Part shown: positions 28,859 through 30,586 of the stretch, piece by piece
Layout of the letters: every line of letters begins with the position of its first letter
Position numbering within the stretch: position 1 is the stretch's first letter
Assembly (NCBI GenBank): GCA_029881055.1
Contig: JAOUNH010000002.1
Location: 1 to 47,294, forward strand
DNA from: Gammaproteobacteria bacterium
GTDB taxonomy: Bacteria > Pseudomonadota > Gammaproteobacteria > Steroidobacterales > Woeseiaceae
Length of the DNA stretch: 47,294 bases
Direction: 5' to 3'
Program-made: the position numbers and the translations under genes
The notes under the pieces: generated by a model
What the model saw: the letters and a program-made list of their open reading frames with translations, nothing else
Told to the model about the DNA's origin: nothing
Database searches by the model: none

Positions 28859-29611
28859 TTAAAGACCTCCTTCCGGTGACATAACGAGGTCGCGGACCCA
28901 GCGCGTGCGCCGCTCGCGGTACAGGACTTCTGTCCGTAATCGCCTCGCCAGCATCGCGCCAAAGAGGAACGTGAATCCGAGAATCATCGCCAGCAAGGGG
29001 TACAACATATCGGCATCCATGGCCGGACCACCTTTCTTGAACAGGGTCTGTCCCTGGTGCAACGAACTCCACCAGACGACCGAGTAATGTACGATAACAA
29101 CGTTAACGACGCCCACCAACGCAAGGACACTGCTGGCTTTGTCGGCTTTCGCCGTATCGTCGATCGACGAGCGCAAGGCCATATAACCGAAATACAGGAA
29201 CAGCAGGATCAACTCCGAGGTTAGCCGCGGGTCACCCCACTCCCACCATGTGCCCCACATCGGTCGACCCCAGATGGAACCCGTAACCAGCGCAAGAAAC
29301 GTGAACGTGGCTCCCAGGGGCGCAGCTGCCGCACCGACGGCATGGGCCAGCTTCAGACGCCAGATGAGGCCGATGCCACCACCGACGGCCATGATCATGT
29401 ATGCCATCATCGACAGGTACGCGGCTGGAACATGGATGTAAATTATCCGAAACGCATCGCCTTGCTGGTAGTCCGGGGACGCGACAAAGAGCCCGGCATA
29501 GGTGCCGTAGGCGATCAACATGAGACCGGGCACCGCAAACCAGGGAATAAGCACTTTGGCAATTCGATAGAAATGCGGCGGCGACGCCATCTGATGAAAA
29601 AATTTCCACAT
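28859..29611 (-). CDS. ccmC: Heme exporter/handling protein CcmC
   Basis: A 250-residue membrane protein with six helices. The WWD-type motif WGTWWEWGDPRLTSEL lies near 120-135. The conserved histidines are H60 in IYIHVPAAY and H184 in SSLHQGQ. It presents heme to CcmE in the periplasm. The ATG at 29611 lies only 3 nt after the end of a small ORF carried by an inserted 265-bp element, instead of directly after ccmB. Downstream genes follow without gaps. Confidence 0.95.
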   Translation of the reverse strand: MWKFFHQMASPPHFYRIAKVLIPWFAVPGLMLIAYGTYAGLFVASPDYQQGDAFRIIYIHVPAAYLSMMAYMIMAVGGGIGLIWRLKLAHAVGAAAAPLGATFTFLALVTGSIWGRPMWGTWWEWGDPRLTSELILLFLYFGYMALRSSIDDTAKADKASSVLALVGVVNVVIVHYSVVWWSSLHQGQTLFKKGGPAMDADMLYPLLAMILGFTFLFGAMLARRLRTEVLYRERRTRWVRDLVMSPEGGL

Positions 29612-29614
29612 GAG

Positions 29615-29806
29615 CTAGGGCCTGCTAACACTAAACTGATAAACACTGTTGTGCCCGAAAAGGCGCCAATCAAGGCGCGACGATCGCCGTTTGGTCATTC
29701 CAAATAAGTGAGGAGCAACGCCGGGTGGCACCTTTTTGGGCATAACCCGCAGGGCCGGGGCTATTTTGTCGCCCGGCGGCGTTATCAGTCGCTTATATAG
29801 ATTCAC
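29615..29806 (-). CDS. Small ORF inside the inserted element, coupled to ccmC
   Basis: A 63-codon frame starting with GTG at 29806 and preceded by AGGAG with a 9-nt spacer (29816-29820). It crosses the inner end of the terminal repeat and stops at TAG (29615-29617), where the stop codon is part of the CTAG target. The ccmC ATG follows after 3 nt. The product is basic and Pro-rich (LITPPGDKIAPALRVMPKKVPPGV) with no recognised domain. It may not be a functional protein; its translation could serve to deliver ribosomes to ccmC past the insertion. Confidence 0.35.
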   Translation of the reverse strand: MNLYKRLITPPGDKIAPALRVMPKKVPPGVAPHLFGMTKRRSSRLDWRLFGHNSVYQFSVSRP

Positions 29807-29882
29807 TATATGTTTCTCCTTCTGCCTTGCCGGACAAGAAAATAGCCTCGGCAGTGCTTGTCAGTTTAGTGTTAACAGGCCC
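29618..29882. mobile_element. 265-bp MITE-like element inserted between ccmB and ccmC
   Basis: Near-perfect terminal inverted repeats bound the segment: 29615-29648 pairs with 29852-29885 over 34 bp with three mismatches, of which the outer 25 bp has only one. Both ends sit in CTAG, consistent with a TA duplication at a CTAG target, as in IS630/Tc1-mariner elements. If so, the element is 29618-29882 and the original ccmB-ccmC spacing was about 9 nt. There is no transposase frame, so it is non-autonomous. The family name is not known to me, and the IS630 link rests on the target only. Confidence 0.8.
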
Positions 29883-29887
29883 TAGTT

Positions 29888-30586
29888 CTACTCGTTACTA
29901 ATACGTAAAGCGGCTGCCGTAGCGTACGGGGCCAGTGAAATCGCCCCGACCGCGTACGCGCCGAGGGCCCAGATACCGGTTGCGTAAACTTCGTTACCTG
30001 CCGCCAGCGAAACCGTGTTGGCACCCAGCAATAGTACAGGCATCGCCAGGGGCAGGATCAGGAGGCTAAGCAAGGCTGTGCCGCGATGCAAGCCCACGGT
30101 CAGTGCAGCACCGATCGAACCCAACAGGCTGAGGCAAATCGTGCCCAGAAACAAGGTCAGCATCAGGACACCCATGGCGTCGCCTGGCATGCGGTAGGTC
30201 ATCGCCAGTAGCGGCGATATGAGCACCAGCGGTAGTCCGCTGATCAACCAGTGGGCAAGGGTCTTGCCCAGCGCCAGCACCGGCAGGGGTTGTGGGCTGA
30301 CGAGCAGCTGGTCCAGGCTGCCGTCCTCGTGATCGCTCATGAACAGCGTGTTGAGCGACAGCAGGGTTGCGAGCAAGGCAGCCACCCAAAGCACGCCGGG
30401 GCCGCTGAATGTCAGCTGCTCCGGACTTGGGCCAACCGCCAGCGGAAAAAGCGTGCAGACCATCGCAAAAAAGAACAGCGGATTCAGGACGTCGCCGGGG
30501 CGTTTCCAGGCCAGTAGCAAATCGCGTCGCGCGACAGCCAGCAAACCGGCAAACATCCCTGGTTGTTCCGGAAGGCGATCACTCAT
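29888..30586 (-). CDS. ccmB: Heme exporter subunit CcmB
   Basis: A 232-residue integral membrane protein with six helices. Typical CcmB landmarks are the N-terminal RRDLLLAWKRPGDVLNPLFFF, the central LLSLNTLFMSDHEDGSLDQLLVSPQPL near 75-105 and HWLISGLPLVLISPLL near 112-127. It forms the membrane part of the CcmAB ABC transporter that powers release of holo-CcmE. Its ATG follows the ccmA stop directly. Its stop codon is 6 nt from the outer end of the inserted element, so the coding sequence is intact. Confidence 0.95.
   Translation of the reverse strand: MSDRLPEQPGMFAGLLAVARRDLLLAWKRPGDVLNPLFFFAMVCTLFPLAVGPSPEQLTFSGPGVLWVAALLATLLSLNTLFMSDHEDGSLDQLLVSPQPLPVLALGKTLAHWLISGLPLVLISPLLAMTYRMPGDAMGVLMLTLFLGTICLSLLGSIGAALTVGLHRGTALLSLLILPLAMPVLLLGANTVSLAAGNEVYATGIWALGAYAVGAISLAPYATAAALRISNE

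Follow-up and report, generated by a model that had tools for sequence, protein, structure and literature searches.

The window, i.e. the whole stretch of 47,294 nucleotides analysed in this work, contains a ccm operon in which a 265-bp element (29618-29882) separates ccmB from ccmC. Further downstream, ccmE is recognised by a Pfam match, and the ORFs at the putative ccmD and ccmF positions are open as judged by ORF reading. The features of the locus, with the evidence for each in brackets, are the following:

29618-29882, no strand: MITE of 265 bp, GGGCCTGCTAACACT...AGTGTTAACAGGCCC (repeat, empty-site and family evidence)
29616-29617, no strand: left copy of the duplicated TA target (sequence; TA/TA count in the family)
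29883-29884, no strand: right copy of the duplicated TA target (sequence; TA/TA count in the family)
29615-29648, no strand: left arm of the outer stem, i.e. terminal inverted repeat plus inner part (repeat search, covariation)
29852-29885, no strand: right arm of the outer stem (repeat search, covariation)
29648-29746, plus strand: hairpin A with the conserved inner module A (folding and family alignment)
29754-29852, minus strand: hairpin B with the less conserved inner module B and, in this copy, the GTG start (folding and alignment)
29816-29820, minus strand: AGGAG, a Shine-Dalgarno (SD)-like site (best anti-SD duplex -8.8 kcal/mol)
29615-29806, minus strand: 63-codon GTG frame, the putative relay frame of the window copy (ORF list; TAG 3 nt ahead of ccmC)
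29888-30586, minus strand: ccmB, upstream gene (open; Pfam/NCBIfam match)
28859-29611, minus strand: ccmC, downstream gene (open; Pfam/NCBIfam match)

Apart from three mismatches (91%), the arm at 29615-29648 is complementary to that at 29852-29885, in agreement with the 34-bp terminal inverted repeats that an earlier note on this DNA had described, and the inverted repeat carried on into the flanks measures 37 nt with 89% complementarity. The same note had reported CTAG at both ends, a length of 265 bp and no transposase; all of these were seen again, no transposase ORF being present inside the 265-bp element. The target was read as a TA around a 265-bp element because GGG and CCC are constant across the family and the outer Y and R are variable. 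On the operon strand, AGGAG (29816-29820) is followed after 9 nt by a GTG (29806), which opens a frame of 63 codons closed by a TAG at the target site (29617-29615), 3 nt before the ATG of ccmC; this arrangement, too, is as the earlier note describes it. In most copies of the family, module A carries an AGGAG and the TTG start of a 64-codon relay frame, and the window copy is without that AGGAG. By eye, module B resembles an inverted module A.

The distance from the ccmB stop to the ccmC start is now 276 nt, and the TA of the window copy lies 3 nt past the ccmB stop. Once the element and one TA are taken out of the window, a gap of 9 nt is left. CcmC is present in 61 of the 73 genomes of the genus; we compared 30 ccmB-ccmC loci, the window's among them, and scored the 29 others. 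An empty site was found in 28 of the 29 relatives, with a ccmB stop (TAG in 23, TAA in 5), a short gap (9 nt in 11 genomes, 10 nt in 10 and 11 nt in 7) and the ccmC ATG, and one relative (G081) was not readable in this form. This comparison, which the earlier note had proposed, supports its estimate that the two genes would be about 9 nt apart without the element. The nearest relative by CcmC (G002, 92% identical) has an empty site with a gap of 9 nt, and therefore the insertion probably followed the split from G002. Copies in two genomes (G035 and G064) are followed by ATGTGGAAA, which is like a ccmC start, and the ccmC of both genomes is on another contig.

When 60 genomes were searched at the DNA level, 13 matched: the window's own and 12 further members of its genus. 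The 23 genomes from outside the genus had no match. The module pattern was matched 51 times in 23 of the 73 genus genomes, by copies that adjoin differing flanking genes, and a control pattern gave no match. At least 120 matching stretches were found in a wider genome scan; among the 80 matches listed, most belong to Gammaproteobacteria and two to Zetaproteobacteria, and the taxa include Thiodiazotropha, Woeseiaceae, Salinisphaerales, Nevskia, Pseudomonas, Alcanivorax and Gilvimarinus. End matches number 134 to 249 per genome in half of a set of 12 searched genomes, and four of these six are Thiodiazotropha. For the family alignment, 37 of 173 module hits were dropped for want of a terminal repeat; a length of 262-276 bp and repeats that are not weak were also required, which left 112 copies, or 108 after removal of duplicates. 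TA is present on both sides in 70 of the 98 copies scored for target duplication (10 of the 108 were unscored). The window element is a MITE: it is short, has terminal inverted repeats, a duplicated target and no transposase, and it has both dispersed copies and an empty site. The mobile MITE-like element of the earlier note is thus confirmed, and the possibility raised there, that the 265 bp occur at this single site only, is at odds with the copies found at other sites.

With a Thiodiazotropha copy as query, two of the 72,556 records of a plasmid collection were matched, neither spanning most of the element, and the window copy had no match in a phage collection. Five loci (L157, L161, L217, L229 and L237) hold longer variants (289-298 bp); their ends are unchanged, which places the extra sequence inside the element. 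Some draft contigs (G006:C90, G006:C265, G064:C186, G035:C146 and G066:C126) end inside or beside copies, and the family may therefore be under-counted in such assemblies. We also observed 110 ends without modules in Thiodiazotropha endoloripes (G097, first 1.2 Mb of contig C7 and first 0.8 Mb of C10; loci L286-L325 and L392-L451, species named from L141), 45 of which were scored as 35-bp scars (GGGCC...GGCCC between TA). These module-less ends are distributed 86 on the minus against 24 on the plus strand (57:10 in C7, 29:14 in C10); GC skew is positive in every 100-kb bin, and long ORFs are near balance in the first 800 kb of C7 (246:219). These ends fit a deletion by hairpin slippage, mostly on one replication strand; the cross-species comparison of deletion scars covered few orthologous sites.

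The operon strand of the window element folds with -139 kcal/mol (z = -11.55). With respect to shuffled sequence, z was about -11.5 for each strand folded as RNA and -8.7 for one strand folded as DNA. Of 82 pairs predicted from 23 copies, 63 show at least one pair-preserving double change; in the 108 copies, aligned in three stem groups, 66 of 80 pairs occur as two or more Watson-Crick types, each in at least three copies. The pair cells of the 108 copies amount to 7644 Watson-Crick, 281 GT, 231 AC and 356 other (GT:AC 68:25 in the outer stem, 86:40 in arm A and 127:166 in arm B), and when each distinct pair type is counted once, GT (56) does not exceed AC (62). A control set of 19 tRNAs gave 21 GT and no AC, a control that leans because the tRNA finder itself favours GT. 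The outer stem has 51% identity between copies and is 94% paired within a copy. Module A is conserved in its unpaired columns (mean majority 0.91 vs. 0.76 in the stems), and the unpaired columns of module B (0.75) are no more conserved than the stems. A three-way cruciform is thus common to the aligned copies, and as its stems covary in Watson-Crick fashion with no G-U preference, the pairing would be kept mainly at the DNA level; constraint or arm-to-arm copying may be responsible.

Longer elements of the IS5 family, about 800-865 bp in length, were found to have ends that match those of the MITE. In one genome, two separate copies of 812 bp (L362 and L388) have TAGGGCGTGTTAACACTAAT at both ends, a further element (L374) has TAGGGCCTGTTGATCTTT at both ends, and another (L389) has TAGGGCCTGTTAACACTAA with one mismatch between its ends. 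The ends of an 838-bp IS in G021 (TAGAACCTATCTCA) are those of a MITE subfamily in the same genome; NF033580 (IS5) is matched above its cut-off by the C-terminal ORF of this IS and below it by the N-terminal ORF, which does exceed the cut-off of DUF4096, a family detected in two of the 73 genus genomes. Altogether, TA-GGGC(C/G)TGTT or a near variant flanks 800-865 bp at L362, L363, L364, L369, L374, L388 and L389; 30 source loci were read by their ends, and the remaining loci have such an end on one side, a variant of it, or nothing of the kind. One genome (G070) contains a decayed IS starting with TAGGGCCTGTTAACACTAAT and a shortened IS with TAGAAGCGGTCTCA ends, and when the class was searched with the decayed one, 26 of 369 genomes had matches. 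As seen at L360/L361 of this genome, the shortened IS5-type element has both TAGAAGCGGTCTCA ends and the decayed one a GGGCCTGTTAACACTAA end; these could be steps from IS to MITE.

The domain DDE_Tnp_1 is present in four of 11 copy-bearing genomes and missing from the copy-rich G097, G100 and G107, and DDE_Tnp_1_2 is above cut-off in none of 14 genomes. The window's own genome (84% complete) has one Y1_Tnp and none of DDE_3, DDE_Tnp_1, DDE_Tnp_1_2 and DUF4096. An IS630/Tc1-mariner source, for which the earlier note had suggested looking, is not supported: DDE_3 was found in none of the 11 copy-bearing genomes, and the matching ends are those of the IS5 family. Nor is an origin as REP/BIME sequences of a RAYT (Y1), which have no target duplication and flank the Y1 gene, supported, in view of the TA duplication and of the distribution of Y1_Tnp, which is present in 12 of 14 genomes and missing from the copy-bearing G021 and G022; among 26 Y1 loci, only L348 has a full element close by, and L350 has a weak end. 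Judging from these sequences, the element is a MITE of IS5-family type, most likely moved in trans by such a transposase. The IS5-family IS (NF033580, DUF4096 plus DDE_Tnp_1), which we take to be of IS427 type, share with the MITE the terminal sequence and the TA, and differ in being about three times longer; the MITE is without a transposase.

The position of the copies with respect to genes was then considered. At 40 boundaries, belonging to 37 of the 108 elements, an open frame of at least 110 codons ends exactly at the element boundary; each other offset has at most five such frames, except +10 (16), which is a TAA within the terminal repeat. The 40 boundary stops comprise 37 TAG at an intact TA (35 elements) and three TGA where no TA was recognised. 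Since the first base of the element is G, a stop codon (TAA or TAG) that is hit in its TA is restored as TAG. As a separate observation, six of seven short end matches examined in the genome of the window start precisely on the TAG that closes an ORF (G000 contigs C39, C65, C143, C9, C272 and C257; L006, L007 and L009-L012), the exception being on C102 (L005).

Junctions, defined as co-directional frames that end close upstream and start close downstream of the element, were read from open frames, with no gene finder. On this basis 42 of the 108 copies are at junctions, with an orientation of 33:9 and a relay in sense in 30 and in antisense in 10. We kept 38 junctions with a Pfam-checked downstream protein; the four dropped for lack of a Pfam hit all have the module-A strand in sense, and three are relay-capable. 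The upstream protein was checked at nine of the 41 other junctions, in addition to ccmB, and family matches on both sides are found at lpxB-rnhB, ribH-nusB, rnfC-rnfD and a PDZ-trypsin protease followed by a lytic transglycosylase. At the 38 checked junctions, the module-A strand is in the operon sense in a ratio of 29:9 (p 0.0017), and a relay is present in sense in 27 and in antisense in nine (discordant 20:2). In 2.0 Mb of T. endoloripes, with 25 module hits (one element counted twice), the ratio was 7:2 in the same direction under a looser junction rule, with L165, L179 and L197 also included in the first set. The same orientation bias is observed for non-operon copies beside a gene start (17:5), and little bias for copies beside a gene end (14:10). 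Because the gene-start bias occurs outside operons, the orientation bias may have another cause.

Relay-capable strands are those with a start whose SD is at least as strong as -5 kcal/mol and whose frame reaches the element end. On the module-A (plus) strand there is usually an AGGAG-TTG with a frame of 64 codons that closes at the target TA: AGGAG stands 5-8 nt ahead of TTG in 85 of 98 copies, and the plus strand is relay-capable in 67 of 98 copies as compared to 305 of 1960 shuffles (16%). The start codons of the relay frames sit in hairpins. In 37 divergent representatives, the plus frame is open in 25, against 14.7 ± 2.5 after permutation of paired columns (0 of 300 permutations with as many), a result that rests on these representatives, the version with all 108 copies being confounded by relatedness. 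Frame 1 of the minus strand also has fewer stops than permutations (4/300), and the minus frame that contains the window's GTG is open in 14, as compared to 10.3 ± 2.3 (22/300). A minus-strand relay is present in five of the nine minus-oriented junction copies vs. 19 of the 99 others (p 0.025).

Of the 30 in-sense junction frames, 24 have 63 or 64 codons, and many of the stops are within 4 nt of the downstream start, which is partly a matter of geometry because the frame ends at the insertion-target TA. The contrast between sense and antisense is largely due to the orientation bias and to the better plus strand. The plus frame is found in 41 of 66 non-junction copies as compared to 25 of 33 module-A-sense junction copies, and such similar frequencies speak against selection for this frame at junctions. 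No protein constraint on the plus frame was detected, either in the differences by codon position (157/155/171) or in a dN/dS-like ratio (0.78 vs. 0.82 and 0.77 in the other frames); entropy by codon position (0.776/0.775/0.869) has a slight third-position excess. A small protein-coding gene or conserved peptide is not supported, as no purifying selection on amino acids was found. Among the 78 copies scored for length (30 of the 108 were unscored), 18 are off the modal length, only one by a multiple of 3; indels of this kind disregard the frame. The relay frame and the orientation bias are statistical results, and the translation relay to which they point is plausible or likely.

An insertion within an operon would be expected to have polar effects and to uncouple the translation of adjacent genes. 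Termination-reinitiation coupling needs an overlap or a very short distance between genes (title of PMC10666635), and the 276-nt gap should abolish it at ccmB-ccmC. The SD of ccmC is weak (-2.5 kcal/mol in the inferred empty site and in the seven relatives computed, -3.3 at the element edge) as compared to that of the window's GTG frame (-8.8 kcal/mol), and a re-coupling of translation by this frame is therefore reasonable for the window copy. The earlier claim that the ORF re-couples translation to ccmC fits these strengths; as a family trait it does not hold, since the window copy is a minority case, with opposite orientation and a GTG frame present in 7 of 108 copies. The accompanying idea of a translational bridge survives in another form, a relay frame with a strong SD on the other strand being the family norm and, in junction copies, mostly reading into the next gene. 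The added promoter also proposed in the note finds no support, no sigma-70-like promoter having been recognised by consensus scan; the same type of scan revealed no terminator in the element.

We give about an even chance to the explanation that an IS5-type MITE is tolerated at operon junctions through a built-in translation relay. An IS5-family-type transposase would move the MITE in trans, and the MITE inserted at a TA in the 9-nt ccmB-ccmC gap. The DNA of the element can take the form of a three-way cruciform; across the family its stems change in sequence without losing complementarity, and the sequence of module A is kept. An internal strong SD and start would open a stop-free frame of 63-64 codons ending at the duplicated TA by the downstream start, on the module-A strand with TTG in the family and on the other strand with GTG in the window copy; ribosomes may use this frame, and ccmC may depend on it. 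More tentatively, and with some doubt, the relay could be a selected, defining trait of the family, which would then be an operon-compatible transposon. In such a case, the duplicated TA would close the upstream gene as TA+G, and the frame would end on the second TA, near the old distance to the next start, so that coupling would be kept.

The relay has to be weighed against an ordinary, neutral MITE insertion at a TA between genes, with readthrough, independent initiation of ccmC and an ORF that is a by-product of stop-poor GC-rich modules, to which we assign rather less than an even chance. For a single element the ORF length is within chance, since an ORF of at least 63 codons arises in 213 of 2000 dinucleotide shuffles, and the missing codon signature, the indels not in threes and the plus frame carried nearly as often by non-junction copies all agree with neutrality. 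It accounts poorly for an SD with a frame to the end in 67 of 98 real plus strands vs. 305 of 1960 shuffled ones, for the excess of open frames in divergent representatives and for the 29:9 orientation bias. The element might instead be a site of mRNA processing or attenuation, at which an RNase III cut or a damping of transcription shifts the CcmAB:CcmCDE ratio; the very stable fold of either strand and the precedent of Correia and ERIC elements, as presented in parts of PMC10969869 and PMC3049150, speak for it. We consider it unlikely, given the equal standing of GT and AC in the stems and the lack of a terminator-like site, although cutting of the mRNA is compatible with both. A structured RNA gene or riboswitch-like element that is no transposon, to which the conserved inner module and the covarying stems would be suited, is very improbable in view of the transposon ends, TA duplication, empty sites, pair counts (Watson-Crick 7644, GT 281, AC 231) and lack of any Rfam match at gathering score in the window region and 14 loci (window hit E 0.85, chance level).

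MITEs in operons, repeats that supply stops and ORFs within repeats are already known from parts of PMC3049150, PMC5896051, PMC10969869 and PMC2718517. The pneumococcal BOX and RUP repeats are, like the present family, folded interspersed repeats; BOX provides the stop codons of upstream genes in 36 cases and contains transcribed ORFs (PMC3049150, in part). For the three expressed BOX ORFs discussed there, good SD candidates are missing, whereas strong SD-start pairs are present in most copies of the MITE family. Correia, ERIC and QMITE elements and the Rickettsia palindromic elements, compared by their descriptions in parts of PMC10969869 and PMC5896051, are small palindromic mobile repeats that affect neighbouring mRNAs or ORFs, and the mechanisms given there are fusion, promoters, and IHF or RNase sites. 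Chunjie of Geobacter uraniireducens, also compared by description only, is likewise a MITE (178-235 bp), and the descriptions available for it mention no relay frame, unlike what is seen in the present family. In the literature covered (titles and abstract openings, few subscription papers), there is no account of this MITE family, of a relay in a MITE, of a three-way cruciform with covariation of the DNA type or of an SD, start and frame that recur and are aimed at the next gene; one of six strings searched is contained in PMC10106347.

If the relay is true, a family that lodges at junctions and keeps both the upstream stop and a path for ribosomes would be an example of mobile DNA evolving to spare its host. 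The family is also a natural record of hairpin stems in which pairing is kept and sequence turns over. Integron attC sites have a conserved shape and varying stems that are paired at the DNA level. The MITE resembles them in shape and stems, and differs from them by its TA duplication and transposon ends.
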